50,819 nt of DNA, from assembly GCA_002698985.1 (NCBI GenBank), contig PAAY01000072.1, positions 1 through 50,819 on the forward strand. The letters are read 5' to 3'. This DNA comes from Saprospirales bacterium. GTDB lineage: Bacteria; Bacteroidota; Bacteroidia; Chitinophagales; Saprospiraceae. The number at the start of each line of letters is the position of its first letter. Positions within the stretch are counted from its first letter, which is position 1. Shown one piece after another: positions 8,781-34,357 of the stretch. The translations under genes were made by a program, and so were the position numbers. The notes beneath the pieces are model-generated. The model did not search any database and was not told the origin of the DNA. It saw only the letters and a program-made list of their open reading frames with translations.

Positions 8781-8869
8781 TTGTAAGTTGTAAGTTGTAG
8801 GTTGTAAGTTGGGGGGCACCTCCTACAACCTACAACTTTACAACCTACAACCTACAACCTACAACCTAC
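8781..8869. repeat. Self-complementary heptamer array between two genes
   Basis: The first half repeats TTGTAAG/TTGTAGG (8781-8810); after GGGGGGCACCT the second half repeats the complement, CCTACAA (8822-8868). The two halves can pair into a long hairpin in the 98 nt between the CHU_C protein stop and the next ATG at 8873. Copies are imperfect, so copy number may change by slippage. Confidence 0.85.
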
Positions 8870-8872
8870 GAC

Positions 8873-11800
8873 ATGAAACTGAAATCTCACCCACTGCTGG
8901 TGGCCATTTTGGCCATGCCCTTTTTCCTTTTCGGGCAACAACTCAACCTCGACCATTTTCAGAACATGAAACCCCGGAACATCGGCCCTGCCGGAATGTC
9001 CGGGCGGGTTACTTCCATCGATGTGCTGCTGAGCAACCCGGATGTGATATACGTCGGAACGGCTTCCGGTGGCGTTTGGCGAAGCAAAAGCGGCGGCACC
9101 GACTGGGAGCCCGTTTTTGACGAAGCGCCGGTGCAATCTGTTGGTGCAGTGCGCATCAACCAGAACAACCCCGACGAGATCTGGGTAGGCACCGGCGAGG
9201 GCAACCCCCGCAACAGCCAGAACAGCGGAAAAGGTATCTACAAAACCATAGATGGCGGCAAGACCTGGAAGCTGATGGGGCTGGAAGGCACCAAGACCAT
9301 CCACCGCATCATCATCCACCGGGACGATCCCAACACCGTCTTCGTAGGTGCCACCGGCTCTGCCTGGGGGCCCAACCCCGAGCGGGGCGTATTCAAAACC
9401 ACCGATGGCGGCAAAACCTGGCGCAAAGTGCTCTTCGTCAACGACAGCACCGGCTGTGCCGATCTGGTGGTGGACCCCTCCAATCCCAACAAGCTCATCG
9501 CTGCCATGTGGGAGTACGGCCGCAAGCCCTGGACCTTCAACTCCGGTGGAAAAGGCTCCGGCATCTGGGTGTCTTTCGACGCCGGTGAAACCTGGGAACG
9601 CCGCACGGCCAAGGACGGCCTGCCCAAAGGCGATCTCGGGCGTATCGGTTTGGCCATTGCTCCCAGCAAGCCCAACATCGTTTACGCACTGGTGGAGGCC
9701 AAAGAGAACGCACTGTACAAAAGCTATGACGGCGGCTTCAAATGGACCAAGATGGCCAGCGCCAACTCCAATCGCACCAACGTTAGCAACCGGCCATTCT
9801 ATTACCACGAACTGTATGTGGATCCGAAAAATGAGAACCGCATTTTCAGCCTGCACAGCACGCTCACAAAAAGCGAAGACGGTGGCAAGACTTTCGAACC
9901 CTGGGTGGGCTGGAAGGTGCACCCCGACCACCACGCCTTCTGGATTCACCCCGAAGACCCTTCTTACATGATGGAGGGCAACGATGGGGGGCTCAACATC
10001 AGTCACGACGGCGGCGCCACCTGGCGTTTTGCCGAGAACCTGCCGCTGGCCCAGTTTTACCACATCGACATTGATATGAGCACCCCTTACCGGGTTTGCG
10101 GCGGCATGCAGGACAACGGTTCCTGGGTGGGACCTTCCGCTGTCTGGAAAAGCGGTGGCATCCGCAACAGCGACTGGCAGGAGGTCTATTTCGGCGATGG
10201 TTTCGACGTGGCCATCAGGCCGGACGATCCCCGTTACTGCTATGCCATGTCGCAGGGCGGCAACCTGGCCTACATTGACATGCTGACCGGCCACACACGC
10301 AGCATCCGTCCGGTACATCCGGATGGGGTGGAGCTGCGCTTCAACTGGAATGCCGGTTTTGCGAAGAACCCTTTCCACGACTGCGGCATTTACTACGGCA
10401 GCCAGTTTTTACACAAGAGCCTCGACTGCGGCAACAGCTGGGAGATCATCAGCCCGGACCTGACCACCAACGACAGCACCAAACAGCAGCAGGACAAAAG
10501 CGGCGGCCTCACCATCGATGCCACCAATGCTGAGAACTTTACGACCATCGTCGCAATAGCCCCCAGCCCCATGGATGAAAATGTGATCTGGGTAGGCACC
10601 GACGACGGCAACGTGCAGGTGACCCGCGACGGCGGCAAGACCTGGACCAACGTGGCCGCCAACATGCCCGGCGCCAACCCCGGCAGCTGGATTCCCTACA
10701 TCGAGCCCAGCAAGAAGCGGGCAGGGGAGGCCTTTGTGGTGGTGAGTGATTATCGTCGCAATGACTGGCGGCCTTTCGTTTACCACACCACCGATTTTGG
10801 CGCCACCTTTACCCGCATTGCCGATGAAACGCAGGTCAGCGGACCGGCTTTCTGCATCGTGCAGGACCCCATCGTTGAGAACCTGCTGTGGATGGGCACC
10901 GACCACGGCTTGTGGGTCAGCATTGACTTCGGAAAGAACTGGACGAAATGGACCAAGGGCTTTCCTTCGGTAACGGTGACCGATCTGAAAATCCATCCCC
11001 GGGAGCACGATCTGGTGATCGGAACCTTTGGCCGTGCCGCCTGGATCCTGGACGACATTCGCCCCATCCGTGAAGTTGCCCGCAGCGCGGGCGAAGTGCT
11101 GGAGAAGCCTTTTGCGGTCTTTCCCGCACCGGATGCCTGGCTGGCCGAGTTTGCCTCTGTGAGTGGTACCCGCTTTGCTGCTGATGCCATTTACCAGGGC
11201 AACAACCGCTGGCCCAATGCCATGATCACCTGCTGGGTGCAGCCTCCTTCGGTAAAAAAAGCGCTGGAGGAAAAAGCCGAAGCCGAAAAGGCCGCCGCTG
11301 AGCAGGGCAAAAAGAAAAAGAAAGGCAAAGCCGTTGCTGGTACCCGTCCCGATACCTCGGGAGGTGAAAAGAAGGAAGAAGAAGTTGCCGCAGGCGAAGG
11401 TGAAGAAGAAGCTGCGGAAGAAGTTGCCGAAGGTGAAGAAGAAGAACGACCCCGCCGGGGCCGCCGCGGTAAGCAAAAGGTCAAGGTAAGGGTGGTGAAC
11501 ATGGACGGCGATACCATCCGCACCTTCAGCCAGGAAGTGGACACCGGCATGGTGCGCATCTACTGGAACCTGAACCAGGATGGGGTGCGTTTCCCCAGCC
11601 GCCGGCAGCCACGGCCGGATAGCGATCCGCCACAAGGTTATGAGGTGCTGCCCGGCACTTACAAGCTCTACCTGACCCTCGGAAAAAATACCGACAGCAC
11701 GGAAGTCGTCGTCCACGACGATCCGAGGATGGGCTTCCGCATGGAAAAGATGAAAGCCCAGCACGCTGCCTATGACGAACTGGCAAAAGTCGTCACCGCT

Positions 11801-12223
11801 GCCACCGAAGGTTTCGACCGCCTGCAGGATGCCCGCAAAAACATCGAGGTGGTCAACGAAGCCCTGGCTTATGTGCCCGACAGCCTGAAAAAGGAGGTGC
11901 AGAAAATGGGCAAGGAATTGCAAAAAAGCATTGATTCGCTGGAGCGCCGTTACATGATGCCGGAAGGACTCAAAGGCATCCAGCGGGATCCGAACACCAT
12001 CACCGGCACGCTGTGGCGGGCGCGTAGTTACATCGGAGCCTCTGACGGCGCTCCCAACCAGGCCGCCCGGATCATGATGGAGCAGGCCCGGAAAGAAGTG
12101 TCGGCAGTGGTGAAAGACATCAATGATTTCATGACCGGTCCTTTTGCGGAATACCGTCAAAAGGTGGAAGCGCTGCAGGCCTCGTTGTTCAAAGAATACG
12201 AGCCGGTGGAGCTGAAGGAATAG
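8873..12223 (+). CDS. Secreted Asp-box (BNR/sortilin-like) beta-propeller protein
   Basis: 1116 residues. Signal peptide 1-21 (hydrophobic, ending FFLFGQQ). About ten Asp-box motifs of the form S/T-x-D-x-G-x-T-W are visible in residues 60-720, for example KTIDGGKTW, KTTDGGKTW, VSFDAGETW, VTRDGGKTW and VSIDFGKNW. They mark a sortilin/VPS10-like multi-bladed propeller, a fold also found in sialidases and xyloglucanases. No sialidase catalytic set was identified, so an enzymatic role is not claimed. Residues about 796-870 are a charged low-complexity insert (Lys-rich, then Glu-rich, then RPRRGRRGKQK). A helical segment follows (residues 960-1116). There is no recognisable T9SS sorting domain, unlike its neighbours. 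The start sits directly behind a heptamer repeat, and a very strong terminator follows. Confidence 0.8.
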   Translation: MKLKSHPLLVAILAMPFFLFGQQLNLDHFQNMKPRNIGPAGMSGRVTSIDVLLSNPDVIYVGTASGGVWRSKSGGTDWEPVFDEAPVQSVGAVRINQNNPDEIWVGTGEGNPRNSQNSGKGIYKTIDGGKTWKLMGLEGTKTIHRIIIHRDDPNTVFVGATGSAWGPNPERGVFKTTDGGKTWRKVLFVNDSTGCADLVVDPSNPNKLIAAMWEYGRKPWTFNSGGKGSGIWVSFDAGETWERRTAKDGLPKGDLGRIGLAIAPSKPNIVYALVEAKENALYKSYDGGFKWTKMASANSNRTNVSNRPFYYHELYVDPKNENRIFSLHSTLTKSEDGGKTFEPWVGWKVHPDHHAFWIHPEDPSYMMEGNDGGLNISHDGGATWRFAENLPLAQFYHIDIDMSTPYRVCGGMQDNGSWVGPSAVWKSGGIRNSDWQEVYFGDGFDVAIRPDDPRYCYAMSQGGNLAYIDMLTGHTRSIRPVHPDGVELRFNWNAGFAKNPFHDCGIYYGSQFLHKSLDCGNSWEIISPDLTTNDSTKQQQDKSGGLTIDATNAENFTTIVAIAPSPMDENVIWVGTDDGNVQVTRDGGKTWTNVAANMPGANPGSWIPYIEPSKKRAGEAFVVVSDYRRNDWRPFVYHTTDFGATFTRIADETQVSGPAFCIVQDPIVENLLWMGTDHGLWVSIDFGKNWTKWTKGFPSVTVTDLKIHPREHDLVIGTFGRAAWILDDIRPIREVARSAGEVLEKPFAVFPAPDAWLAEFASVSGTRFAADAIYQGNNRWPNAMITCWVQPPSVKKALEEKAEAEKAAAEQGKKKKKGKAVAGTRPDTSGGEKKEEEVAAGEGEEEAAEEVAEGEEEERPRRGRRGKQKVKVRVVNMDGDTIRTFSQEVDTGMVRIYWNLNQDGVRFPSRRQPRPDSDPPQGYEVLPGTYKLYLTLGKNTDSTEVVVHDDPRMGFRMEKMKAQHAAYDELAKVVTAATEGFDRLQDARKNIEVVNEALAYVPDSLKKEVQKMGKELQKSIDSLERRYMMPEGLKGIQRDPNTITGTLWRARSYIGASDGAPNQAARIMMEQARKEVSAVVKDINDFMTGPFAEYRQKVEALQASLFKEYEPVELKE

Positions 12224-12610
12224 GAATTCAGCTGCCATGAACCGGTTTTTGATAACATTTGATTTCCGGGTTCCGGCGCTTTGTCCGGAACCCGGAAATT
12301 TTTTCCCGGAATTGGAATCCCGTATTTTCTGCCTTCTTCCAGAAATTCTGTGACAGGGTAAAAATGAAAGGCCCGCTTGACACAATTTCTGACTACCTGG
12401 ATGCTTGGAAATGTTTTGTTAGGATCCAAGCCTTCAGGCATTTTCAAAACCACATTTAATTCACCGAAGAAATTCCATTTCTTGGTAATCCAAACTGGCT
12501 CTTGTGCTTCGGCACAGGATAAACCTGTGTGGTTCTTGTTGAAATCCTCAGAATTCCGGCAAGAATAAACCACATTGATTCACAACCCCCCGGTTGTAAA
12601 GAAAGTCCAC
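12224..12610. other. Intergenic region, 387 nt
   Basis: Holds the terminator at 12262-12304. Nothing else is recognised up to the signal-peptide ATG at 12611. Confidence 0.6.
12262..12304 (+). terminator. Strong Rho-independent terminator, 15-base stem
   Basis: ATTTCCGGGTTCCGG (12262-12276) pairs perfectly with 12285-12299 across an 8-nt loop (CGCTTTGT). The T-tract TTTTTT (12299-12304) begins with the last paired base. It ends the Asp-box propeller gene. Confidence 0.93.
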
Positions 12611-13678
12611 ATGAGAGCACAGGTCATTCTCTCTCTCCTGGTGCTTATGAGCACCGGTCACCTCTGTGCGCAAACGTGTCAGAATGGAAGTCCAGCCACC
12701 GTGGTGAGCGTTGACTTGTCAGGTAAGCAATCCTGGGATGCACTCCACGATCCGGACAACCAAACTTTCTCGGTTTGCGGCTTCCCGGCCAATGCCAATA
12801 TGGTTGGTTTTGAATGGTCGGGTATCGACCTTTCACCCATCGGGGTGAGTTGGTGTTCAGAGGTCGCATTTGAAATCCACTCCTCGCTCATCTTCCGGCC
12901 TGCTTACAATGAGCGGCACAAGGCCCCGTGTAACAATAATTACGCGGGAGGAAGCCCCAGCTATTTGCAGGACAACGGCCTGACATTTACGGCAGGAGCT
13001 GACGGATGCGTGAACATCGAGATTTATGAAACATACAATGATTTCAACAACGCAAAAGATGCGGATATCACCGCCGGAACCATGACCTTCACCGGTTGTC
13101 CTGTGGGACTGGCCTTGCCCATTGAACTGGTTGCGTTCAGCGCCACTGCCGAAGCAGATTACAACCTGATTCGTTGGCAGACGGCCTCCGAGTTGAACTC
13201 GGCCTGGCACATCCTCGAGCGTTCTGTTGACGGCAAAGATGACTGGGAGGAGGTTGGCAGGCTGGCAGGTGCCGGCACCACCAACGACGACCAGGAATAT
13301 ACTTTGCAAGATTACGAGCTATTCCCACTGGTTTATTACCGCCTTCGGGAAATAGCCTACGATGGACAGGAGCAATTCTCTCACGTCATTGCCCTGGAGC
13401 GGCCGTCGGAAAACTTCCGGCTGTTGAACATCGCTCCCAATCCAAATGACGGGCAGTTTCAGCTCCATATCGATACACCTGAACAGGGACCCGTTTTGAT
13501 CAGTGTTTTTGATCAGATCGGACGTCGGGTCTGGGAAGAAGAACGAACCCTGGACCCAGGGCTACAACAACAAGCATTGAACCTGAATTCACTCGGCAAT
13601 GGCCGGTACGCCATTGTATTGCAAAAAGACTATGAAACGATTGTTGAATCGCTGATCATCAGCAAACAAAAACCGTGA
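12611..13678 (+). CDS. T9SS-exported surface protein of unknown function
   Basis: 355 residues from the ATG at 12611, which begins the signal peptide MRAQVILSLLVLMSTGHLCAQ; a longer frame from a TTG at 12575 would bury the signal and is not favoured. Residues about 25-175 are a Cys-containing secreted domain I do not recognise. Residues about 180-270 are the common Bacteroidota module that precedes sorting domains (LPIELVAFSA, WQTASELNSAWHILERS, YYRLREIAYDG). The type A sorting domain starts at about residue 274 (IAPNPNDGQFQLHID) and ends with LIISKQKP. Expected location is the cell surface or outside. Function is unknown. Confidence 0.85.
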   Translation: MRAQVILSLLVLMSTGHLCAQTCQNGSPATVVSVDLSGKQSWDALHDPDNQTFSVCGFPANANMVGFEWSGIDLSPIGVSWCSEVAFEIHSSLIFRPAYNERHKAPCNNNYAGGSPSYLQDNGLTFTAGADGCVNIEIYETYNDFNNAKDADITAGTMTFTGCPVGLALPIELVAFSATAEADYNLIRWQTASELNSAWHILERSVDGKDDWEEVGRLAGAGTTNDDQEYTLQDYELFPLVYYRLREIAYDGQEQFSHVIALERPSENFRLLNIAPNPNDGQFQLHIDTPEQGPVLISVFDQIGRRVWEEERTLDPGLQQQALNLNSLGNGRYAIVLQKDYETIVESLIISKQKP

Positions 13679-13774
13679 ACGGAGCCATTCACAGGCTTGC
13701 TTTTCAGTCAGTACAGCGGAACCATTCCACCGGATCAAACGACAAATATCCACAACAACTTCACCTGAAGATCC

Positions 13775-13801
13775 GCCGGTTTCCGCTTACTGGCTTTTTT
13801 T
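13775..13801 (+). terminator. Possible short terminator
   Basis: GCCGGT (13775-13780) and ACTGGC (13789-13794) form a 6-bp stem with one G-U pair and an 8-nt loop, followed by seven T. It is short, but placed about 100 nt after the stop of the T9SS protein. Confidence 0.45.
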
Positions 13802-13812
13802 ATTGTTGAATT

Positions 13813-13840
13813 GTTGATCCCGAAAGCTTTCGGGAGTTGA
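13813..13840. repeat. Dispersed palindromic repeat, copy 1 (exact reverse complement of 19662-19689)
   Basis: The core TCCCGAAAGCTTTCGGGA (13818-13835) is a perfect 18-base palindrome. The flanks GTTGA and GTTGA make a 28-nt element that recurs exactly, inverted, at 19662-19689. Similarity to TCAACA-type flanks extends further on both sides. Confidence 0.9.
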
Positions 13841-13915
13841 GATTGTTAACGGGCTCAGTTCAACTGTACGATCCAGGAATTTAGTTCAGGCATGACCTCA
13901 GGTCAATAAAAACCA

Positions 13916-13948
13916 ACAGCTGACAGCACTCGGAGTGCTGTCAGCTGT
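13916..13948. repeat. 33-nt palindrome, copy 1 (second copy at 40123-40155)
   Basis: ACAGCTGACAGCACTC (13916-13931), a single G, then its exact reverse complement (13933-13948). It is followed by AAAAACCTAAAAACC. The copy 26 kb away differs at one base and is also embedded in AAAAACC-type runs. It lies downstream of two converging genes (ends at 13678 and 13966) and could serve as a bidirectional terminator. Confidence 0.9.
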
Positions 13949-13965
13949 AAAAACCTAAAAACCCC

Positions 13966-14808
13966 TCAATCAAAAACCTTCAAAAACCGCTCAGTCTGCA
14001 CCACTTGCCCATCGGTTTCGATGGTGATCAGGTAAGTGCCCGCCGGTAGGTTCTCGATGTCCATTTCCGCTTTTTGATCGCCTGAAAGATCGATGCTGCC
14101 CATTTGGATCATGTTGGAATTCCAAAGCCTGGCAATGGCCTTGTTCAGGATGGCATTTTCGGCTTTCAAGATCAGCCGTTTAGAGGCAGGATTGGGATAG
14201 AGCCGGAAAAGGTAAGCGGATTCCGCTTCCTTGGTGGCCGTGGTGGTATTGCCTTCGCCACATTCAACGGGAGTGCCCGCTTCGTAAAGCCCGCTGTAAT
14301 TGTAAAACTCCAGAGGTGATTTCCCAAAGTCCACCACGCTGAGGTCGTTGCCCGGATTTGTACCCTCAGAATTGGGCAGTTGGGCAAAAGGATCGGTTTC
14401 GTTATCGATCAGGTAAGGCGGGCTGCCGTCCTGGTTGGTCATTTTGAAAGTGAAAAGCAGGGTTTCTTCGCCAGGGGTGTAAACGATGGCCGGCATGTCA
14501 GCTACGAAGCCCATGGTGAAGTACATCATACCCGGATTTTCCTCCGGTGAGTACACAAGGGCATTGTCGTCCCATGCCCCGCTTATGCTGGTCAATTCTG
14601 AAAAAACAGACCCCATTTTGGCCACGATGGTAACTTGCCCGCCACCAGTGATGGTCTGACTGGTGGGGCTGATGGTGTCGCATGCCTGCACATACACTCC
14701 CCAGACATTGGCTTGGGGCATTTCTTTCAAAGTCAGGAAAAGCTGGGCTTGAAGGTGGGTAGCGGCTAGAAAAAGCACAGCCAACAGGATGGTGGCAACC
14801 TTGTTCAT
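13966..14808 (-). CDS. T9SS protein sharing its N-terminal module with the giant repeat protein at 43.7 kb
   Basis: 280 residues. Signal peptide 1-21 (...AATHLQA). Residues about 22-184 match the N-terminal module of the giant Asp-rich protein: shared points include VYVQ....TISP, TITG.GQ(V/I)T(I/L)V, SG.W......V(Y/H)SP.ENP, G.ET(L/M)LF..K and a DPF..LPNS.GTNPGNDLSV(V/I)D(F/I)G stretch. It resembles the secreted beta-sandwich domains that precede sorting signals; no enzyme motif is visible. A type A T9SS domain follows (LFRLYPNPASKRLILK, GTYLITIETDG, ending ERFLKVFD). It is encoded opposite to its neighbours. Function unknown. Confidence 0.85.
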   Translation of the reverse strand: MNKVATILLAVLFLAATHLQAQLFLTLKEMPQANVWGVYVQACDTISPTSQTITGGGQVTIVAKMGSVFSELTSISGAWDDNALVYSPEENPGMMYFTMGFVADMPAIVYTPGEETLLFTFKMTNQDGSPPYLIDNETDPFAQLPNSEGTNPGNDLSVVDFGKSPLEFYNYSGLYEAGTPVECGEGNTTTATKEAESAYLFRLYPNPASKRLILKAENAILNKAIARLWNSNMIQMGSIDLSGDQKAEMDIENLPAGTYLITIETDGQVVQTERFLKVFD

Positions 14809-14952
14809 AGTTGTAAGTTTTTTTTTGTCAATAAATGAGCGGGGGAAGGGGAGATGGGCTGTTTCAGGAATGCAAGGAATATGCCACAGCTCCCCAGGTG
14901 GAAATCAAAGGGGAATTACCCACCTTTGCAAGGCATCAACAAAACCACCTTC

Positions 14953-15750: not shown

Positions 15751-15778
15751 TCAGTTGGCAGTTGGTCCCGGGGCTTCG

Positions 15779-15839
15779 CCCTAAACCCTAAACCCTACAC
15801 CCTACACCCTCAACTCTACACCCTAAACTCTACACCCTA
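15779..15839. repeat. Telomere-like heptamer array (CCCTAAA/CCCTACA)
   Basis: Imperfect tandem copies of CCCTAAA, CCCTACA and CTCTACA fill about 60 nt between the DUF3298 lipoprotein and the subtilisin gene. The resemblance to plant telomere repeats is coincidental; it belongs to the set of short intergenic arrays in this window. Confidence 0.85.
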
Positions 15840-15959
15840 TTTCCCATTCCGCAATCCTCGCAACACTTTGCGCAGGTGCATTTGGGTAAGCTCCCGAAAG
15901 CCAATAACTTGGGGCCTTGTTCAATATTTTAAACCATTCCGGTACCGGAAACAGACACT

Positions 15960-19541: not shown

Positions 19542-19555
19542 GCGCCGGCAATTCA

Positions 19556-19604
19556 GGGATGAGGGATTAGGGATGAGGAATGATGAATGAGGAATGAGGA
19601 ATGA
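19556..19604. repeat. Seven contiguous heptamers (GGGATGA/GGAATGA)
   Basis: Units in register: GGGATGA, GGGATTA, GGGATGA, GGAATGA, TGAATGA, GGAATGA, GGAATGA. The same GGGATGA word, complemented, forms the array at 32033-32060. Confidence 0.92.
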
Positions 19605-19636
19605 AGTGCACCAGCAGAGACTCAGTGCTCATTACA

Positions 19637-19668
19637 TTCAACACTTCAACACATCAACACTTCAACTC
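19637..19668. repeat. Octamer array TTCAACAC
   Basis: Four 8-nt units starting at 19637, 19645, 19653 and 19661 (TTCAACAC, TTCAACAC, ATCAACAC, TTCAACTC), directly abutting the palindromic repeat. Confidence 0.85.
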
Positions 19669-19689
19669 CCGAAAGCTTTCGGGATCAAC
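19662..19689. repeat. Dispersed palindromic repeat, copy 2
   Basis: Exact reverse complement of 13813-13840, with the TCCCGAAAGCTTTCGGGA core at 19667-19684. It ends 12 nt before the symporter ATG, so it lies in the leader and could affect initiation by forming a 9-bp hairpin. Confidence 0.9.
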
Positions 19690-19701: not shown

Positions 19702-21006
19702 ATGAAAAAACTCGAACTACACTGGAAGATTCTGATCGGAATGGTATTGGGCGTGGCATTCGGTGCCCTGGCGGTCAAGTTGGGTTGGAACGGATTCGTG
19801 GTGGATTGGATCAAGCCCTTCGGAACCATCTTCATCAATTTGCTGAAGCTGATTGCCATTCCCCTGATCGTGGCTTCGCTCATCAAAGGGGTTTCCGACC
19901 TGGAGGACATCGCCAAGCTCTCCTCCATGGGTTACAAAACCATCGGCTTTTACCTCATCACCACGGCGGTGGCCATCTCGGTAGGCCTCATCATCGTCAA
20001 CATTGTGGAGCCGGGTTACCTCATCGACGAGCCCACCCGGGCTGAAATGATGGAGAAGTTCGGTTCCGGTGCACAAGCCAAGATTCAATCGGCGGAAGAA
20101 GCCAAAAATGCAGGCCCCTTGCAGCCGCTCATCGACCTGGTGCCAGACAACATCATCGGGGCCGCCTCCAGCAACGGCAACATGCTCAAGGTTATCTTTT
20201 TCGTCTTGTTTTTCGGGGTGGGGCTCATACTGATTCCGAAAGAAAAGGCCCAGCCCGTCAAAGACTTCTTCGACGGGGTGAATGAGGTGGTGCTTAAAAT
20301 GATTGACCTCATCATGCTCACGGCGCCTTATGGCGTTTTCGCCCTGTTGGCAGCGCTCATCGTGGAGTTGCCCAGTGCCCAGATATTCGTGGCGCTATTG
20401 GGTTATGCAGCCTGTGTAGCCGGCGGATTGCTGATTTTGCTTTTCTTTTTCTACCCAACCATCGTCAAAATATTCACCGGCCGTGGCTGGAACTTCTTCT
20501 TCAAAGGCATGGCACCAGCGCAATTGCTGGCTTTCAGCACCAGCTCCAGTGCCGCCACGCTGCCGGTCACCATGGAGCGGGTAGAGGAGCACCTCGGTGT
20601 GGATGAAGAAGTGGCCAGTTTCGTATTGCCCATCGGCGCCACCATCAACATGGACGGCACAGGTCTGTACCAGGGAGTTGCGGCAGTGTTCATCGCCCAG
20701 GCCTTCGGCATGGAGTTGAGCCTCGCTGCGCAATTGGGCATCATCCTGACCGCCACACTCGCTTCCATTGGCTCGGCTGCAGTGCCCTCTGCCGGCATGG
20801 TCATGCTGGTCATCGTGTTGCAGGAAGCGGGAATCCCCGAAGCCGGCCTGGCCCTCATATTCGCAATAGACCGCCCGCTGGACATGCTCCGCACCGTCAT
20901 CAATGTTTCCAGCGATGCCACCGTCTCCATGGTCGTAGCCAAAAGCATCGGAAAACTTGGCGAACCCAAAGAGAAAAAATGGGATGATTTTGTGGAACAG
21001 GTGTGA
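19702..21006 (+). CDS. Dicarboxylate/amino acid:cation symporter (DAACS family)
   Basis: 434 residues from the ATG at 19702 (MKKLELHWKILIGMVLG); the frame stays open to 19594, but that extension is repeat-derived and not supported. Family hallmarks: the serine-rich re-entrant loop FSTSSSAATLPVTMERVEEHLGV, the NMDGTG motif that binds substrate and Na+, and the second hairpin (SIGSAAVPSAGMVMLVIVL), with eight membrane helices. DAACS proteins import glutamate, aspartate or C4-dicarboxylates driven by Na+ or H+ across the inner membrane. The exact substrate cannot be read; a basic-residue change that marks neutral amino acid carriers was not checked. Its leader is almost entirely repeats. Confidence 0.93.
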   Translation: MKKLELHWKILIGMVLGVAFGALAVKLGWNGFVVDWIKPFGTIFINLLKLIAIPLIVASLIKGVSDLEDIAKLSSMGYKTIGFYLITTAVAISVGLIIVNIVEPGYLIDEPTRAEMMEKFGSGAQAKIQSAEEAKNAGPLQPLIDLVPDNIIGAASSNGNMLKVIFFVLFFGVGLILIPKEKAQPVKDFFDGVNEVVLKMIDLIMLTAPYGVFALLAALIVELPSAQIFVALLGYAACVAGGLLILLFFFYPTIVKIFTGRGWNFFFKGMAPAQLLAFSTSSSAATLPVTMERVEEHLGVDEEVASFVLPIGATINMDGTGLYQGVAAVFIAQAFGMELSLAAQLGIILTATLASIGSAAVPSAGMVMLVIVLQEAGIPEAGLALIFAIDRPLDMLRTVINVSSDATVSMVVAKSIGKLGEPKEKKWDDFVEQV

Positions 21007-21012
21007 GGGGGA

Positions 21013-21114
21013 GGATTATAGGGATTATGAGGATTATAGGGATTATAGAGGATTATTGGGATTATAGAGGATTATTGGGATTATTGGGATTATAGAGGAT
21101 TATTGGGATTATTG
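21013..21114. repeat. Eleven-copy GGATTAT array, 9-10 nt period
   Basis: GGATTAT starts at 21013, 21022, 21031, 21040, 21050, 21059, 21069, 21078, 21087, 21097 and 21106, with spacers alternating between AG/GA and TG forms. It fills the gap between the symporter stop and the AT-rich propeller gene. Confidence 0.93.
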
Positions 21115-24465: not shown

Positions 24466-24472
24466 GTGTGAC

Positions 24473-25960: not shown

Positions 25961-25989
25961 CCGTTCATTTGTTTCGTCGCAATGAACGG
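25961..25989. promoter_or_regulatory. 9-base inverted repeat upstream of the ars operon
   Basis: CCGTTCATT (25961-25969) and AATGAACGG (25981-25989) are exact complements separated by 11 nt, 32 nt before the first ATG of the ars operon. It could be an operator or a leader hairpin. No known ArsR box is matched. Confidence 0.45.
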
Positions 25990-26104
25990 ACAACAAGGCC
26001 AGCGTGAGTTTTGCTTCGGCAAAGCAAAGGAAAATCACCGACTCGGTTTAAAGTGTAGTTGGGAGGACAGTTGGTGGAAGTGGCTGTAAGATGGGGTGAT
26101 TGTG

Positions 26105-26148
26105 TGACTGGTGACTTTGAGGCTGTGAGACTTTGAGACTGTGAGACT
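26105..26148. repeat. Octamer array TGAGACTN, copy A
   Basis: TGAGGCTG, TGAGACTT, TGAGACTG, TGAGACTG start at 26118, 26126, 26134 and 26142, with degenerate TGACT copies before. The same word makes the array at 28224-28255 on the other side of the gene. Confidence 0.88.
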
Positions 26149-26169
26149 GGGTGACGAGGTTGCAACATA

Positions 26170-26227
26170 CAGTTGCAGCCTCGCTTGCAAGACGCTGGCA
26201 GCGGTTCGGAACCCTGCCAGCGTTGGG
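26170..26227. repeat. 58-nt hairpin-bearing block, copy A
   Basis: 54 of 58 positions match 28276-28333. It holds a hairpin: ACGCTGGCAG (26192-26201) with CTGCCAGCGT (26214-26223), and an inner GGTTC/GAACC pair around a single G. Confidence 0.9.
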
Positions 26228-26343
26228 GGTTAAGGCCTTCCAACTGACAATGTCTCAACCGGGAACTTCATTTACCGAAGGGAAAGGATAAATTTGATGG
26301 CACGAACCGGCAATGTCCTAAACCACAACCCGTGAATGTTCCG

Positions 26344-26433: not shown

Positions 26434-26448
26434 GCTATTTATTTGAAT

Positions 26449-28212: not shown

Positions 28213-28223
28213 GATGGTGGTTT

Positions 28224-28255
28224 TGAGACTTTGAGACTGTGAGACAATGAGACTT
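28224..28255. repeat. Octamer array TGAGACTN, copy B
   Basis: TGAGAC(T/A) units begin at 28224, 28232, 28240 and 28248 with exact 8-nt spacing; same word as 26105-26148. Confidence 0.9.
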
Positions 28256-28275
28256 GGAGGTGAGCTTACAACTTT

Positions 28276-28333
28276 CAGTTGCGGCCTCGCTTGCAAGACG
28301 CTGGCAGTGGTTCGGAACCCTGTCGGCGTTGGG
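28276..28333. repeat. 58-nt hairpin-bearing block, copy B
   Basis: Copy of 26170-26227 with four substitutions. In the outer stem two C/A-to-T/G changes turn Watson-Crick pairs into G-U pairs (ACGCTGGCAG with CTGTCGGCGT), so the hairpin 28298-28329 is kept at RNA level. A partial copy of the region to its left (28262-28289) recurs at 28355-28382 with 24 of 28 matches. Confidence 0.88.
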
Positions 28334-28399
28334 CGCTCCGCATGAGAACCAGGCGAGCTTGCAACTTTCGGTTACAGCCTCGATGCTGCCGGCGAAGAT

Positions 28400-28426
28400 C
28401 TTATGAGGTTTCCGAAACCTCACAAG
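28400..28426. repeat. Palindrome TGAGGTTT-CCG-AAACCTCA
   Basis: Eight-base perfect inner stem (28404-28411 with 28415-28422), one A/C mismatch, then three more pairs. I recall similar GAGGTTT palindromes between genes in other Bacteroidota, but cannot verify. Confidence 0.8.
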
Positions 28427-28489
28427 GTCTTTAACCCAAACACCAACCTTTATCACCTTTCATTTTTTTCGTATTCTTGGCTGTGCGGT

Positions 28490-28497
28490 TAAATTTG
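28490..28497 (+). promoter_or_regulatory. Candidate -7 box TAAATTTG for the ferredoxin gene
   Basis: Matches TAnnTTTG, 80 nt before the ferredoxin ATG. The -33 position holds only a T-rich stretch (28464-28469). Confidence 0.55.
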
Positions 28498-28571
28498 CCG
28501 CTGCTGAACACAAAACTGCAAACCACGGGAAGCTGAGCCGGCCCAACCGGCGGCCCCCACCAAAACACTGA

Positions 28572-28925
<354 letters not shown>

Positions 28926-28946
28926 TTCAGGTAGGACCTTTTTGAG

Positions 28947-28982
28947 AACCGCCGGTAGCCGTACGTTGCCGGCGGTTTTTTT
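28947..28982 (+). terminator. Rho-independent terminator after the ferredoxin
   Basis: AACCGCCGG (28947-28955) pairs with CCGGCGGTT (28969-28977), with extra pairs inside, followed by seven T (28976-28982). Confidence 0.92.
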
Positions 28983-29074
28983 GACTTGTACTTACCCATT
29001 GGCGCATTTTGAGGCCTTTGCTTTTGCGGGGCTGGTTACCTTTAGGGCTTTCATCATTCACAAACTCCCAAAGG

Positions 29075-31930
29075 ATGCACAGAAGCGCCTGCCTCTTTCT
29101 CGTTTTTCTTTTTTCGCTTCGGGCTGTCGCCCAAATTTCTTTCACCAATCAAACCGAGGACCTGCTGGATGTGGACACCACCTACACCGGCATCGCCGTG
29201 GCCGTGGCGGATATGAATGGCGATGGCCTGGACGACATTGTGCGCATGCACTTCGGCACTAACTTGCTGATCAGCTATCAAAATGCCGGCGGCGGATTTG
29301 TGACTACCGACTACGGCATGAGCCTTCCGGCTCCCTGGGCCGTTGCCACAGGCGACGCCAACAACGATGGTCTCATGGACCTCTACACCGGCGGCTTTTA
29401 CGACGGACCACGGGTGCTCTTCAACCAAAATGCCGGTGCCGCTTTCAACGAATACAACCTGCCCGGAACCAGCATTTTCGTGCAAGGTGCCAACTTCGCC
29501 GACATCAACAACGACGGCTACCTGGATGTGTTCTCCTGCCACGACGACGGCGAAAGCCGCATCTGGGGCAACGACGGCGCCGGTGGCTTTTTCAGCGCCG
29601 ACAACTGGATCGACATGAAGACCATTCCCTCTTCTGACAATTCCGGTAATTACGGCTCCGTCTGGACGGATTTTGACAACGATCACGACCTGGACCTCTA
29701 CATCGCCAAATGCCGCCAGGGAGTCAGCAACCCCGAGGACCCCCGCCGCATCAACGCCCTCTTCGTCAACGACGGGGCCAACAACTACAAGGACAAAGCC
29801 GACGAATACGGCCTCAAAATCAAATGGCAGAGCTGGACGGCAGACTTCCAGGACATCGACAACGACGGCGACCTCGACTGCCTCATCACCAACCACGACC
29901 ACAACCTCCAACTGCTCGAAAACGACGGTGCCGGCCACTTCACCGATATCTCGGACATTGCCGGCCTGGCCGGCTACAATGGCGGATTCCTGCAGGGCCT
30001 CATGCGGGATTTCGACAACGACGGCTGGGTGGACATCCTCACCGCCGAGCCAACCCTGCTGCTGCTCAACAACGGCGACAAGACTTTTAGCAAGGTGAAT
30101 GCACCTTTTGACGGCGCCAACCTCGGCTCCTTTGCCATCGGCGACCTCAACGCCGACGGCTTCCCCGATGTGTACGCCTCCTTCCCTTGCGGCATCAACA
30201 ATCCCTGCAATGTGCCCGACCGCCTTTTCATCAACGGGGGCAACGGCAACCACTACCTGGGGGTGCGGCTGGTTGGAAACATGAGCAACCGTGCCGGTGT
30301 GGGAGCCCGGCTGGAGGCGCACGGCCCCTGGGGCGTGCAGGTGCGGGAGGTCCGGGCAGGGGAGAGCTATGGCATCTCCAACTCGCTGGCGCAACACTTC
30401 GGCCTGGGAGCCGACACGGTGGTTGAGCAGCTCGTGGTGCGCTGGCCTTCGGGCAATGTGGACGTGCTGAGCAATGTGGCTGCCGATCAGGTGATCATCG
30501 TCGAGGAATCAACCACCTGCGCGGCAACCTCCGGGCTCGAGATCGGTTCCGACGCCGGCAACGTCCTCTGTCCCGGCGATACCCTGACCTTGACGGCGAC
30601 AGCCGGCTACGAAAACTACCTGTGGAGCAACGGCGCTTCCGGGGCTGTGCTTTCCGTAGCCCTGCCGGGCAACTACAGCGTGGTGGCCCTGGACAGCAAC
30701 GGCTGTGTGGCCTCCTCAGCGGTGTTTTCGGTGGTCTTCAATCCCGAGGAAGCACCGGTGGTGACGGCCGCCGGAGAGCTGTCGTTTTGCGAAGGAGGCA
30801 ATGTGGAACTGACGGCTTCTGATGCCGCTGCCTACCTGTGGTCAAATGGTGAAACCGGCCAGAGCATCCTCGTGGAAGAACCCGGGGCCTACTTCGTCAC
30901 CGTGCCCGGCGCTTGCGGGGACTTCAGTTCCGACACCGTTTTGGTGGAGGTGTACCAGGCCCCGCCGCCAGTGGTGGAGCAGGTGGTACAGGCCACCTCC
31001 ATGGACCCGCTGCCGCTGGTAGCCCAGGGCGATCATCCGCTGTGGTACGATAGTCCGGCTGGCGGCAGCCTCATTGCCGAAGGAGATACTCTCTGGACCC
31101 CTGCGGTGACGGACACACTTTACTATTACGTTGCTGACCAGCACAGCTATGGCGGCGGCAGCTTCATGGCCGGAATGGAAGCCCACAGCGGCTCGCCGTA
31201 CAGCGGTGCCGGATTCAACGGGCAGGTACTCTTTGACGCCTACCAGGATTTTATCCTGAAAACCGTAAAGGTTTACACGGACATCGCTGCCCCGCGGATC
31301 ATTCAGTTGCTGGATGCCACTGACAACGTGGTGCAACAGGACACCTTCGACATTGCCGAAGGTGAAAGTGAACTCAATTTGAACTTCTCTGTGCCTGCGG
31401 GCAATGGCTACAAACTGACCACCGATGCGGAATTCAACCAGCTTGCCCTCGGAACCATTACGCCCCGCCTCCAGCGCTCCGACCAGGGTGTGAACTATCC
31501 CTACGAGGTGCCCGATGTGCTCAGCATCATCGGTTCAAATTTCGGTGCCGGCTTTTACTATTATTTCTACAACTGGCAGGTGGAACTGGAGGCCGTCCAT
31601 TGCGAAAGCGAGCGGGTGTCGGTGACGGTGCTGCCCGTGCCTAATGCCGTAGTCGATCTTGCTTCCTTCGGCAAAATTGCGCTGAGCCCCAATCCCGGAA
31701 AACCGGGAATTTCTCAGATTTCCATCTCACCAACCGCTCCGGGCAATATGGAGCTCCGCCTGACCGACCAACTCGGCCGGGTGCTGGAAACCCACCAACT
31801 AAGCCTGCTACCAGATGTGGAGCAGTCAGTAACCATAGGAAAGGAAATCCAATTGCCCGAAGGCATTTATTTCATTCAGCTTCGCCAAAATGGCCGGGTA
31901 GCGACGCTGAAGTGGGTGGTTGTTGATTGA
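29075..31930 (+). CDS. FG-GAP/VCBS and ASPIC/UnbV repeat protein with T9SS domain
   Basis: 951 residues from the ATG at 29075, which gives a clean signal peptide (MHRSACLFLVFLFSLRAVAQ); the upstream frame to 29009 is not signal-like. Residues 30-390 carry many FG-GAP/VCBS calcium loops (VADMNGDGLDD, GDANNDGLMDLY, ADINNDGYLDV, TDFDNDHDLDLY, QDIDNDGDLDC, RDFDNDGWVDI, GDLNADGFPDV), predicting a propeller. An ASPIC/UnbV domain follows (about 392-475, GVGARLEAHG, EVRAGESYGISNSLAQHFGLG, VRWPSG). Then Ig-like domains with YLWSNG(E/A)(T/S)G, a module shared with the subtilisin (WYDSPAGG to YYYFYNWQVELE), and a type A sorting domain (from about 867, LSPNPGKPG). It is a surface or extracellular protein, possibly for adhesion or polymer binding. 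ASPIC/UnbV proteins are common in Bacteroidota with unproven roles. Confidence 0.92.
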   Translation: MHRSACLFLVFLFSLRAVAQISFTNQTEDLLDVDTTYTGIAVAVADMNGDGLDDIVRMHFGTNLLISYQNAGGGFVTTDYGMSLPAPWAVATGDANNDGLMDLYTGGFYDGPRVLFNQNAGAAFNEYNLPGTSIFVQGANFADINNDGYLDVFSCHDDGESRIWGNDGAGGFFSADNWIDMKTIPSSDNSGNYGSVWTDFDNDHDLDLYIAKCRQGVSNPEDPRRINALFVNDGANNYKDKADEYGLKIKWQSWTADFQDIDNDGDLDCLITNHDHNLQLLENDGAGHFTDISDIAGLAGYNGGFLQGLMRDFDNDGWVDILTAEPTLLLLNNGDKTFSKVNAPFDGANLGSFAIGDLNADGFPDVYASFPCGINNPCNVPDRLFINGGNGNHYLGVRLVGNMSNRAGVGARLEAHGPWGVQVREVRAGESYGISNSLAQHFGLGADTVVEQLVVRWPSGNVDVLSNVAADQVIIVEESTTCAATSGLEIGSDAGNVLCPGDTLTLTATAGYENYLWSNGASGAVLSVALPGNYSVVALDSNGCVASSAVFSVVFNPEEAPVVTAAGELSFCEGGNVELTASDAAAYLWSNGETGQSILVEEPGAYFVTVPGACGDFSSDTVLVEVYQAPPPVVEQVVQATSMDPLPLVAQGDHPLWYDSPAGGSLIAEGDTLWTPAVTDTLYYYVADQHSYGGGSFMAGMEAHSGSPYSGAGFNGQVLFDAYQDFILKTVKVYTDIAAPRIIQLLDATDNVVQQDTFDIAEGESELNLNFSVPAGNGYKLTTDAEFNQLALGTITPRLQRSDQGVNYPYEVPDVLSIIGSNFGAGFYYYFYNWQVELEAVHCESERVSVTVLPVPNAVVDLASFGKIALSPNPGKPGISQISISPTAPGNMELRLTDQLGRVLETHQLSLLPDVEQSVTIGKEIQLPEGIYFIQLRQNGRVATLKWVVVD

Positions 31931-32032
31931 GGAATAGAGCCCCGTGGCGATAATAATCGGCATCGGGGGAAGAACTCAGGAACTATGGTGAACGCCGCAG
32001 GTACATCAAACGAATTGTAAAAGCTTGCAAGT

Positions 32033-32060
32033 TCATCCCTCATCCCTCATCCCTCATCCC
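32033..32060. repeat. Four perfect TCATCCC heptamers
   Basis: Exact 7-nt period from 32033 to 32060, ending 4 nt before the stop of the OmpA gene. The complement GGGATGA is the word of the array at 19556. It lies between convergent genes. Confidence 0.92.
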
Positions 32061-32063
32061 TTA

Positions 32064-32942
32064 CTATTCCCCCGTTTCCCGGATCATTTGGAGCAGCTTG
32101 TTGTAGCTGGCAGAGACGATGAACTCGACGCGGCGGTTGGCGGCTCGTCCCTCCTCTGATTCGTTGGAAGCGATGGGCTCGGATTCTCCTTTGCCGACGG
32201 GAGTAAGCTGGTTGGTGGGCAGGCCGAACTCTTTGGTCAGGGTGCGCACCAGCGTTGCGGAGCGAAGGGCGCTGAGGTCCCAGTTGTCGGCGTAGGCACG
32301 GCTTTTCGGTGGGCGGTTATCGGTATGGCTTTCGATGGTGATGTGGAGGTCGGGATGCTGGAGGAAGATGGTGGACAGGCGCTCCAGGAAATCCACGGCG
32401 CCGGACTCGAAGCCGATGCTGCTGGGTTTGAAAAGCATCTTTTCGGGCACCCGTATGTGCAGCGCTGTACCTTTCACTTCCAGTGCAAAGTGTTCATCCT
32501 GGATGTCGGTGAACGACACGGTGATGATGTCTTTCAGTTTTTTCATGCGCAATTCCATGTTTTCCACTTCGCTGCGCAATGCTTTCAATTCCTCTTCCAG
32601 GTTATTGATGATGGCATCCTTTTTCTGAAGCGCCAGGTCCAGTTTCTGTTGGGTTGTCAGCGACTGGCTGCTCATGTTTTCCATCTCCTCTTCCAGTTTT
32701 TTGATGGTGCGCTCCTTTTTGTCGTAAAGCTCGCGGAGGGCATTGGCTTCGCCGGTTTTTTCTGCCAGTTGGAGTTGCAGGTTGCCCACCTGCTGGTTGC
32801 AGGAGAAGAGGCGCTGGTTGAGCAGTTGGTTGATGCTATCGCGGGTGGCCATTTCGGCTTCCAGTCGTTTTTTGCTGACACAGCTCGTTGTGGAGCTGAT
32901 TCCGATGATTGCGACGAAAAGAAAAAGGTATGCTTTGTTCAT
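32064..32942 (-). CDS. OmpA-family lipoprotein with coiled coil
   Basis: 292 residues from the ATG at 32942 (MNKAYLFLFVAIIGISSTTSC, lipidated Cys21); a start at 32999 would precede the signal with a polar stretch. Residues 25-150 form a long heptad-patterned coiled coil (KKLEEEMENM, LQKKDAIINNLEEELKALR). Residues about 180-285 are an OmpA/MotB-like peptidoglycan-binding domain: ITIESHTDNRPPKSRAYADNWDLSALRSATLVRTL, LTPVGKGESEPIASNESEEGRAANRRVEF, with the diaminopimelate-binding Asp and Arg positions present. The protein should tether an envelope membrane to peptidoglycan. The coiled-coil membrane protein gene is 96 nt upstream on the same strand, so they are probably one transcript. Confidence 0.9.
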   Translation of the reverse strand: MNKAYLFLFVAIIGISSTTSCVSKKRLEAEMATRDSINQLLNQRLFSCNQQVGNLQLQLAEKTGEANALRELYDKKERTIKKLEEEMENMSSQSLTTQQKLDLALQKKDAIINNLEEELKALRSEVENMELRMKKLKDIITVSFTDIQDEHFALEVKGTALHIRVPEKMLFKPSSIGFESGAVDFLERLSTIFLQHPDLHITIESHTDNRPPKSRAYADNWDLSALRSATLVRTLTKEFGLPTNQLTPVGKGESEPIASNESEEGRAANRRVEFIVSASYNKLLQMIRETGE

Positions 32943-33038
32943 GAGTGATGAGTTGAACCGGTTTGGGTGCAAAGGAAAAAAAGAATCCGAAGTTGCCAAT
33001 TACCGGCAGCTTCGGATCCAGCGGTTTGTTTCGGGGCC

Positions 33039-33950
33039 TTATTGCAGACGGAAGCTGGCGGCACCGAGCAGCCCAATGTCTGTGTAAACGGCTACCCGGT
33101 AATAACCCCGCTTGAGTTTGTCTTCCAGGTCGTAGGTGAAAGACATGCGCTGGTTTTCTTCCACATTGACCTGCTGTTCTTTCACGGCGATGATGTCCAT
33201 GGGGCTGTTGTTCACCGTAATTTTTGCGTTGATCGGATTTTCCACCTTGATGGGCGTGCCTTTGTCGTCGGTAATGACGAGGTAGAGCGGGCGTACACCC
33301 CGGAATTCATTGGCCACACCCGTGAGGTCGAAGCTGACACGGATGCGCCGGGCCCGGCGGGCTTTGGCAGTGGCTTTGGTGCTTTTCTTCTCAACTTCAA
33401 CCCGGAAAGCTGTGGCTTTGAAGTTTTCCCGGGTCAGTTTTTTCAGTTCTTCCTGAATGGTTTTGTTCAGGTTGGCCAGGGCTTCGTTTTCCGAGCGGGC
33501 GGTGGCCAGGTCGGCGGTCAGTTGGCCGGTAAGGTTGCGCAGGGAATCGTTTTCAGCCTGCAGGGAGGCAATGGACTGCTCCAGGTCGGTTTTCACCTTC
33601 AGCAATTCCTGGATCTGTGCCCGCAGGTTGTTCACTTCTGACTGGCTTTGTTTCTGGATCTTGTTCAATCTGGCCTGAGTCTGCTGAAGCTTTTTTTCCG
33701 TTTCTTCGGCAGAACCCCTCAGCGATTCATTTTCAGTGGCCAGTTGGCTGTAGGCAGTTGCCAGACTGTCCACATCGCTTTGCAGTTCATCCCGGAGGGT
33801 GGTCAGGTCAGCAATCTGCTGGTTCAGTGTTTCATTTTCGGAAAGCAGGGTGTTGTTTTTCTGGTGGGTGGAGTAGGCCCAATAGGCCGTTCCTGCCAAA
33901 CCCAACAGCAAAATGACGATCAAGACGGTCAATCCTTGTCTGGAATTCAT
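33039..33950 (-). CDS. Membrane-anchored coiled-coil protein, partner of the OmpA lipoprotein
   Basis: 303 residues. One transmembrane helix near the N-terminus (about 7-26, LTVLIVILLLGLAGTAYWAY), then a coiled coil over residues 30-185 (ENETLNQQIADLTTLRDELQSDVDSL and more). A basic linker (KKSTKATAKARRARR) leads to a beta-rich C-terminal domain (about 205-303, IRVSFDLTGVANEFRGVRPLYLVI, GYYRVAVYTDIGLLGAASFRL). The topology suggests an inner-membrane anchor with a periplasmic part. I recognise the type as common in Bacteroidota but not its function. It is co-directional with the OmpA lipoprotein downstream, and both carry coiled coils, so a joint envelope-spanning structure is plausible (inference). 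Confidence 0.8.
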   Translation of the reverse strand: MNSRQGLTVLIVILLLGLAGTAYWAYSTHQKNNTLLSENETLNQQIADLTTLRDELQSDVDSLATAYSQLATENESLRGSAEETEKKLQQTQARLNKIQKQSQSEVNNLRAQIQELLKVKTDLEQSIASLQAENDSLRNLTGQLTADLATARSENEALANLNKTIQEELKKLTRENFKATAFRVEVEKKSTKATAKARRARRIRVSFDLTGVANEFRGVRPLYLVITDDKGTPIKVENPINAKITVNNSPMDIIAVKEQQVNVEENQRMSFTYDLEDKLKRGYYRVAVYTDIGLLGAASFRLQ

Positions 33951-34046
33951 GGCTTCTGATTTTTGGTGATTAATCGCTTTGCATCAACTAATTGCACTTC
34001 GCAATTATTATCTCACGGAAGTGGAAAAAGTTGAATTGAACAGCGC

Positions 34047-34054
34047 CAAAGATA
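34047..34054 (-). promoter_or_regulatory. Candidate -7 box TATCTTTG for the coiled-coil/OmpA genes
   Basis: On the - strand this reads TATCTTTG, an exact match to TAnnTTTG, 97 nt before the ATG at 33950. No clear -33 TTTG. Confidence 0.5.
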
Positions 34055-34333
34055 GACTTTTAGTGGAATGAGGATTTGAGTCCCGAAATCCATCCCGAAG
34101 TTTGTCGGGATCGGCTTTTGGGGGAGGATATGAGGATTTGAAGAATCGAGGAGGGCAAAGTAAAATAGAAAGGTAGAGCTGGGCAGATAAGCAAGGGTTT
34201 TATAGTTTTTCCAATCGGTTCCTCAATTTCTGAGTTCTGCGGTTCTTCAATGTTGCGGCCAGAGGCCGCTACTTAAGTGCGTCAACGAGCAAAGCTCGTG
34301 ACGAGCCGCAGGTATTCCATAGGCAACAGCTGG

Positions 34334-34357
34334 TTCCTCAGTTCTTCAATTCGTCAG
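34334..34357. repeat. Octamer array TTCNTCAR
   Basis: TTCCTCAG, TTCTTCAA, TTCGTCAG, TTCCTCAA begin at 34334, 34342, 34350 and 34358 (8-nt period). A looser copy with the same word lies at 34219-34250. Confidence 0.8.

Follow-up and report, generated by a model that had tools for sequence, protein, structure and literature searches.

G-rich-first order in short tandem repeat arrays of a Saprospirales bacterium and its relatives

Contig PAAY01000072.1 of a Saprospirales bacterium (assembly GCA_002698985.1), analysed here over its full length of 50,819 nt and hereafter called the window, carries in many of its intergenic gaps short tandem arrays with a period of 7–10 nt, and the repeated word often differs between gaps. 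What makes such arrays? An earlier note, drawn from the letters of the window, had proposed a genome-wide process that makes and keeps them; what it overlooked is their strand polarity. When two arrays of the same word stand close together in opposite orientation, the G-rich arm comes first, in gaps as well as within genes.

Genomes and Definitions

The studied genome (G000; 4.83 Mb in 102 contigs, the window being one entire contig) was sampled as the window plus 40 stretches, for 805 kb (~17% of the genome), of which 147.5 kb are intergenic and ~658 kb coding; an earlier, smaller sample comprised the window and 20 stretches (405 kb). Comparisons involved the genus's 14 genomes (G000 and G001–G013, G003 being the nearest species), a member of another genus (G036) and further sets, single loci being designated by L-numbers. 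Sequences were mostly metagenome-assembled and were used as sampled stretches rather than full genomes. Arrays were detected with Tandem Repeats Finder (TRF; period 6–11, score ≥40 for counts), and gene boundaries were set by our own home-made open reading frame (ORF)/hexamer scorer. Two arrays were considered a same-word inverted pair if their words had at most one difference, at a score ≥34. All P-values assumed independence between arrays, an assumption that does not hold for those sharing a gap or a gene.

Inverted Pairs and Gene Boundaries

Among same-word inverted pairs with arms no more than 100 nt apart (periods 6–11), the G-rich arm was first in 36 out of 36 cases, and in 34 out of 34 when periods 7, 8, 10 and 11 were taken; at wider spacing the ratio was 40:1 within 300 nt and 41:1 within 600 nt. 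The pairs come from eleven genomes (G000, G001, G004–G008, G010, G012, G019 and G031), and none was found in the order sets or in the Flavobacteriaceae set. By eye, more than 20 words are present among the 34 pairs, 29 of which have a loop of 5–23 nt. In the four pairs whose arms were compared, letters were identical, odd units included, in L143 (32/32) and L146 (28/28), and matched at 24/27 in L142 and 24/35 in L154. Inspection by eye, without statistics, revealed no common hairpin foot in the flanks of the 34 pairs. Plain and iterated hairpins were also counted with the same code, after exclusion of N-rich records: plain hairpins in gaps showed no bias (38 G-first, 33 C-first, 37 even), whereas iterated hairpins, counted as G-first:C-first:even, gave 18:1:0 for gaps and 9:0:0 for ORFs.

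Twenty-four of the 34 pairs lie in gaps and ten were classed as ORF, three at ORF edges and seven deep in long ORFs. The latter are five pairs in a polyketide synthase/non-ribosomal peptide synthetase (PKS/NRPS) cluster of G012 (L171), one in pheT of the same genome (L250) and one in a UPF1-like helicase gene apparently of G007 (L030); the words ATTTCGG/CCGAAAT, exact or close, recur in six of the seven. When compared with homologues in the PDB, one NRPS hairpin adds ~16 residues and the other substitutes a loop of similar length; the alignment obtained for the helicase does not cover its hairpin. Few orthologous matches among the sampled loci extended across the in-ORF pairs.

The pheT site, between LFEFGKTY and EPQHL, was compared in 11 of the 14 genomes, all but G003, G005 and G010; an in-frame array is present in seven species and absent from four, with the following alleles:

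G012: arms ATTTCGG / CCGAAAT
G008: arms ATTGCGG / CCGCAAT
G006: same word as G008, with other units within the G arm
G013, G004 and G001: arrays mixed, decayed or shortened
G011: C arm alone
G007, G009, G000 and G002: empty site

An in-frame palindrome in coding sequence and an empty allele in relatives are thus both found at this locus. The series therefore indicates an insertion inherited or repeated at one site, without fixing the number of gains, and also that both arms can bear the same other word; from the one-armed allele of G011 it follows that a lone array can be the remnant of a hairpin. Since hairpin, changed-word, one-armed and empty states occur at one site, the life cycle of these arrays can be traced in sister species.

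A related polarity is evident at gene boundaries, scored as the direction of the G-rich strand relative to the nearest boundary within 100 nt. In the studied genome this strand points away from the nearest gene in a ratio of 87:13 at 3' ends and 44:1 at 5' ends, or 80:11 and 42:1 after skew filtering; the corresponding values are 28:8 and 22:1 in the nearest species and 47:10 and 33:4 in the other sets pooled. Lone arrays of the studied genome also point outward (53:4), and convergent gaps give 37:2. One strand of the arrays is nearly C-free, with less than 5% C in 162 of 214. Part of the 3' polarity arises because the words hold stop codons and gene ends run into arrays (six of the eight coding arrays). 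Such an effect of gene calling was rejected as the full cause of the polarity, the 5' and in-ORF results being unaffected; background skew was ruled out as the cause at 3' ends, where the first 25 nt of array-free gaps in the studied genome show none (−0.02).

Abundance and Distribution

In the sampled gaps of the studied genome 214 arrays were counted (145 per 100 kb), while 10 shuffles averaged 0.9; the smaller sample had given 74 intergenic arrays against a mean of 0.3 and a maximum of 2 in 20 dinucleotide shuffles. Only 8 arrays (1.2 per 100 kb) were found in the coding sequence, six of them at gene 3' ends, with the last codons running into the array. The period is 7 in 91 of the 214 arrays and 8–11 in the rest, and the gaps sampled contained no array of period 2–6 reaching score 40. 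The genome-wide process suggested by the earlier note is thus supported: the arrays are far above shuffled intergenic sequence, nearly confined to gaps and much rarer in genes, and a period of 7–11 is favoured.

By the same measure, the nearest species has 155 arrays per 100 kb of gap, the eleven other sampled members of the genus 0 to 184, G036 248, and the remaining sampled genomes of the family and order 0–60, except G031 with 110; many of the samples from the genus, family and order are of 6–60 kb. In 29 named Saprospiraceae loci 28 arrays were counted (44 per 100 kb) versus 0.5 in shuffles, and in 50 more named loci, mainly of Flavobacteriaceae, 8 versus 3.0. Of 60 orthologous gaps shared by the studied genome and the nearest species, 46 are array-free, 5 have arrays in both, 7 in the nearest species only and 2 in the studied genome only, numbers too small for rates.

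Arrays of the Window

The arrays and associated features of the window are the following (+ and − denote the strand; L025 is a locus of the nearest relative):

8780–8811 (+): word GTTGTAA/GTTGTAG, G-rich first arm of a same-word hairpin, just 3' of the stop of ORF 2853–8774 (TRF)
8822–8869 (−): word CCTACAA, C-rich arm, inverse of the GTTGTAA word, after a loop of 10 nt and 3 nt upstream of ATG 8873
15779–15839 (−): CCCTAAA/CCCTACA array, breaking the polarity rule; AACCGCC x17 in the same gap of L025
19555–19604 (+): GGGATGA/GGAATGA array (TRF: AGGAATG/GGGATGA), 3' of stop 19490; AGGGATG x10 at the same site of L025
19637–19666 (−): TTCAACAC array, upstream of the SDF gene (ATG 19702); TCAACAATC x8.7 in L025
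19667–19688 (no strand): small CCCGAAAGCTTTCGGG palindrome interrupting the TTCAACAC array, similar palindromes being present in other gaps
21011–21114 (+): GGATTATAG/GGATTATTG array, period 9–10, immediately 3' of stop 21006 (TRF)
26101–26149 (+): TGTGAGAC/TTTGAGAC array (TRF)
26150–26229 (+): array flank resembling 28260–28339, a small dispersed repeat adjoining the same word (blastn of flanks)
28222–28259 (+): TTTGAGAC array, 3' of stop 28212 (TRF)
28260–28339 (+): array flank resembling 26150–26229 (blastn of flanks)
32033–32061 (−): TCATCCC x4.1 array adjoining the 3' end of the OmpA-family gene 32064–32999 (−) (TRF)
34219–34250 (−): degenerate TTCNTCAR stretch, no array detected at TRF score 30
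34334–34365 (−): TTCCTCAG/TTCCTCAA array at the 3' end of ORF 34362–34928 (−) (TRF)
35772–35790 (−): AAAAACCTC, 2.1 copies with a score of 38, not distinguishable from chance

Ten of the arrays listed in the earlier note were confirmed by TRF, while those at 34219–34250 and 35772–35789 are too weak, a score of 38 also occurring inside the coding sequence of the window. The claim that all of them lie outside genes depends on the SDF symporter: it is correct if translation starts at 19702, from which the Pfam SDF domain is aligned from residue 6, and fails if the ORF starts at 19594, the choice of the gene caller, which would overlap the arrays at 19555–19666. In our own reading nine of the ten arrays follow the polarity. 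By blastn, the sequences just downstream of the window's two TGAGACT arrays resemble each other. At the contig end, a giant ORF (43712–50818, 2369 aa, open at the contig end) contains DNA repeats, 90 and 195 nt long, in which GAC/GAT codons abound, and perhaps encodes a repetitive surface protein.

Words and Dispersed Repeats

The words do vary between sites, as the earlier note had stated in claiming a different word in most places, but they belong to a small vocabulary that is reused across the genome. Two random period-7 arrays of the studied genome share a word with a probability of 0.097, against 0.010 for composition-shuffled words, and the ratio is larger at periods 8, 9 and 10; the nearest species agrees except at period 9, where its value of 0.028 equals the largest shuffle. 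Frequent words of the studied genome are GGGATGA, GGGAGTA, GGGTGTA and GGGTTTA, many others lack GGG or GG, and GGGNATC is absent from the words listed for it. TCATCCC x3 was found in 10 of 13 genus relatives and in none of 46 genomes outside the genus; the word serving as reversed control, CCCTACT, forms arrays too, in the studied genome and the nearest species only. CCGAAAT x3 occurs in 13 of 395 Bacteroidota genomes and its reversed control in 6. Where both species have arrays in an orthologous gap (five cases), the words are the same or nearly the same in two and changed in three, mostly to near neighbours. TAACTGA was absent among the words listed for ten sets, with no genome-wide pattern search made for it. 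A tblastn search of plasmids with two word peptides gave no record for one and four (57–74% identity) for the other, and seven cyanobacterial plasmid stretches contained 11 intergenic arrays at score 40 and no inverted pair, so that they are uninformative for the G-first order.

A shared flank accompanies 6.8% of same-word pairs of arrays and 1.6% of different-word pairs in the studied genome (9.2% and 2.7%, respectively, in the nearest species); some of the reuse of words is due to arrays being carried by small dispersed repeats.

Several dispersed sequences lie near the arrays. An element of ~250 bp (L112:11140–11387, contig C41 of the studied genome), with ends like CTGCAAAAAGTG / CACTTTTTGCAG beside CTCAGTTC words and with at least 40 similar places in the nearest species, looks like a miniature inverted-repeat transposable element (MITE). 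Another, of ~130 bp (L117:3892–4019, contig C47), has imperfect terminal inverted repeats (TATACTCAAAACGAAGT...) and at least 30–40 places in that species. Small CCCGA-N-TCGGG palindromes interrupt arrays in gaps of both species, e.g., at 19667–19688 of the window, and in a PKS/NRPS gene of G012 (L171 near 645–660) an array is interrupted by the palindrome CCCGATAGCTATCGGG. CTCTGTG/CTCCGTG repeats with a period of ~23 (ACTCTGTGGAACTCCGTG) form a second repeated family beside the heptamers in the gaps of both species, as in the C41 79006 gap. When the L023 7069 gap was compared with C219 of the nearest species, super-repeats of ~85–105 nt, each carrying an array of its own, were observed around a GCTAGCGC core, and the array word differed between the species across most of the gap.

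Origin of the Arrays

The G-first order in 36 of 36 close pairs, with more than 20 words and in gaps as well as in genes as essential as pheT, sharply constrains the mechanism. So strict an order points to an orderly DNA-inserting process and not to random stutter, and it argues against both pure slippage and regulation as the cause. We give an even chance to the hypothesis that each array is, or once was, one arm of a palindromic insertion with G-first order, which stutters and decays after its arrival. The intact form would be a C-poor, G-rich word of 7–10 nt in about four copies, a loop mostly of 5–23 nt and the same word inverted, with the G-rich arm first on both strands, as any palindrome requires. 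Insertion would be blind to genes, those that survive being located in gaps or, with the frame preserved, in loops of proteins. The number of copies in an arm would then shift by slippage, and copying between arms, by which we infer that they are homogenised, could lead both to carry the same new word. Loss of one arm over time would leave a lone array; judging from its relatives, the lone arrays of the studied genome would be such decayed hairpins. As a speculation, G-rich repeats might grow on 3' ends at a break and be closed by fold-back or joining, which would give the G-first order by itself.

Several observations weigh against these palindromic insertions. Same-word pairs number only 4 in the studied genome and are lacking in G003 and G036; most arrays of the studied genome are thus lone or mixed-word, and there lone arrays and different-word pairs dominate, with the G-first order largely kept. 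Neighbours on opposite strands whose words differ, and which are thus incapable of perfect folding, follow the order more laxly (50:12 in the studied genome, 20:5 in the nearest species), and with all words and a skew filter the ratios are 39:4, 26:7 and, in G036, 6:3. One same-word pair of the studied genome is C-first (period 9, arms 224 nt apart), as is a lone iterated hairpin, a period-6 CCGATT palindrome around the CCCGAAAG palindrome. Plain hairpins in ORFs (5 G-first, 0 C-first, 3 even) are too few, yet do not repeat the even split of the gaps. The five L171 pairs share one gene cluster, and the pheT series is a single locus, taken without a tree. Regarding gene boundaries, the array at 15779–15839, one of ten in the window, violates the polarity; G036 has weaker ratios (4:2 at 3' and 5:3 at 5' ends); in multi-array gaps, arrays 10–100 nt from a 3' end point outward by only 16:8 in the studied genome and 7:5 in the nearest species; and at 5' ends array-free gaps are themselves skewed, with the same sign, over their first 25 nt (+0.25 and +0.21, respectively), a background that may add to the 5' polarity. 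A common flank is found in just 6.8% of the same-word pairs of the studied genome. Finally, no responsible enzyme was found when Y1_Tnp and RVT_1 profiles were searched in sampled genomes; a divergent enzyme may have escaped these profiles.

Ordinary replication slippage would dispense with any insertion process: seeds of 7–11 nt in gaps would expand, their loops escaping mismatch repair, and selection would clear the genes. Mismatch repair indeed misses loops of ≥5 nt, periods of 7–11 are favoured, and copy number varies at orthologous sites, where a relative may have a short version of the same word (C47 82313, C2 92395). A polymerase-footprint idea has also been put forward for heptamers (PMC4692102). 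Yet slippage gives no reason for the 36 of 36 G-first pairs, nor for inverted partners 8–16 nt away inside pheT, NRPS and helicase genes, and the words are reused about 10 times above composition. We regard it as unlikely, while it is retained within the palindromic insertions as the source of later copy-number change.

Quite improbable, in our view, is that the arrays spread neutrally and are sorted by selection at the RNA level, with the G-sense surviving after stops, where it provides stops in every frame, and the C-sense before starts, where it brings neither start codons nor G-rich structure. Stop codons are indeed present in 168 of 214 G-strand words of the studied genome (shuffled mean 142) and in 101 of 115 of the nearest species (mean 73), gene ends run into arrays, and TAACTGA arrays elsewhere likewise provide stops in all frames (PMC4679880). 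Such selection is contradicted by the seven of seven deep-ORF pairs that are G-first, in three gene regions with no start or stop at stake, and by the polarity in convergent gaps (37:2), in which no 5' end is involved.

A regulatory role of the G-strand arrays as putative quadruplex-forming elements, as considered for GGGNATC repeats, is very unlikely: although GGGATGA, GGGAGTA, GGGTGTA and GGGTTTA give serial G3 runs, many arrays (GTTGAATT, GATTTGAA, GAGACTTT) contain no GGG, and the polarity persists in words without any GG (21:4 and 7:0 in the studied genome; 6:2 and 5:0 in the nearest species), so that quadruplexes are not needed to explain it.

Hardly credible at all is the spread of the arrays by a known mobiliser, whether a telomerase-like reverse transcriptase or the Y1 transposase associated with REP sequences (RAYT): the arrays do have palindromic dispersed repeats around them and G-strand words resemble telomere repeats, GGGTTTA being of the telomere type, but Y1_Tnp (PF01797) does not track array density in the sampled genomes (one weak match of 32.3 bits in the studied genome, 8 in G009, array-poor in a 57-kb sample), RVT_1 (PF00078) has no match in the nearest species, rated 100% complete and as array-rich as the studied genome, and a fixed mobile sequence misfits because words differ from site to site, though dispersed repeats carry some arrays.

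Returning to the palindromic insertions, they might constitute a family defined by architecture and strand order instead of sequence, made by reverse transcriptase-independent 3'-end extension at DNA breaks with C-poor, telomere-like words of 7–10 nt and closed by fold-back or joining, so that all products would be G-first irrespective of their location, the same process also generating the heptamer arrays known from Xanthomonas, cyanobacteria and Beggiatoaceae. Taken as a whole, this wider reading is improbable.

Comparison with Known Systems

REP elements have a fixed tag and a linked RAYT transposase. As with REP/RAYT palindromes and MITEs, small dispersed intergenic palindromes adjoin the arrays described here; unlike in REP/RAYT systems, neither a fixed tag (the foot being sought by eye only) nor a linked transposase was found for the arrays themselves. 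Rickettsia palindromic elements are sequence families of ~100–150 bp lying in frame within protein genes. They share with our hairpins the in-frame palindromic insertion into protein genes, whereas our hairpins have their architecture in common and little constraint on their sequence, the 34 pairs, with more than 20 words by eye, forming no sequence family.

Borg tandem repeats, from archaeal extrachromosomal elements, are fast-evolving and A-enriched, of independent origins, and occur both in gaps and in frame in genes (Schoelmerich 2023, PMC9879509, abstract). The occurrence in gaps and in frame is common to our arrays, while that abstract mentions no inverted pairs.

TAACTGA repeats of Beggiatoaceae and cyanobacteria form gap arrays and overlap ORFs at gene ends, with no mechanism found there, and occur in five Bacteroidetes, some with other heptamer arrays beside them (MacGregor 2015, PMC4679880). 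Such arrays are therefore not new to Bacteroidota, although the earlier note had taken them to be; in the titles and abstracts of open PMC papers nothing on such arrays in this phylum was retrieved beyond that work, and no open PMC paper was found joining tandem repeats, intergenic and Saprospiraceae or containing any of six repeat peptides. Like our arrays, TAACTGA repeats are heptamer gap arrays, patchy across phyla including Bacteroidetes, with stops in all frames on one strand and ORF overlaps at gene ends. In contrast, a single word was studied there, lying mostly forward just upstream of starts in the main genome, and the repeats are direct, that genome having one indirect case (PMC4679880).

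Cyanobacterial STRR heptamers have fixed words. A close parallel, already pointed to by the earlier note for cyanobacteria, is provided by the GGGNATC heptamer arrays of Xanthomonas and Nostoc, which are intergenic, genome-wide, of 2–26 units and variable in length between species (Rehm 2015, PMC4692102). Their G-rich strand is the coding one immediately 3' of stops and the non-coding one immediately 5' of starts, and in two Xanthomonas genomes 70 and 75 closely spaced pairs are "convergent" (PMC4692102), which in our own reading is the G-first order. Non-coding tandem 7-nt units well in excess of chance, a G-rich strand running outward from gene ends and convergent close pairs are all found here. 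GGGNATC itself is not among the words listed for the studied genome; and where the Xanthomonas and Nostoc repeats are of one word family with G-runs, here there are many words, several without GG, with periods of 7–11, in-frame copies in long genes and, at one orthologous site, differing words with matching arms. Heptamer repeats have been known in distant bacteria without a mechanism, and the G-first order gives such a mechanism something definite to explain.

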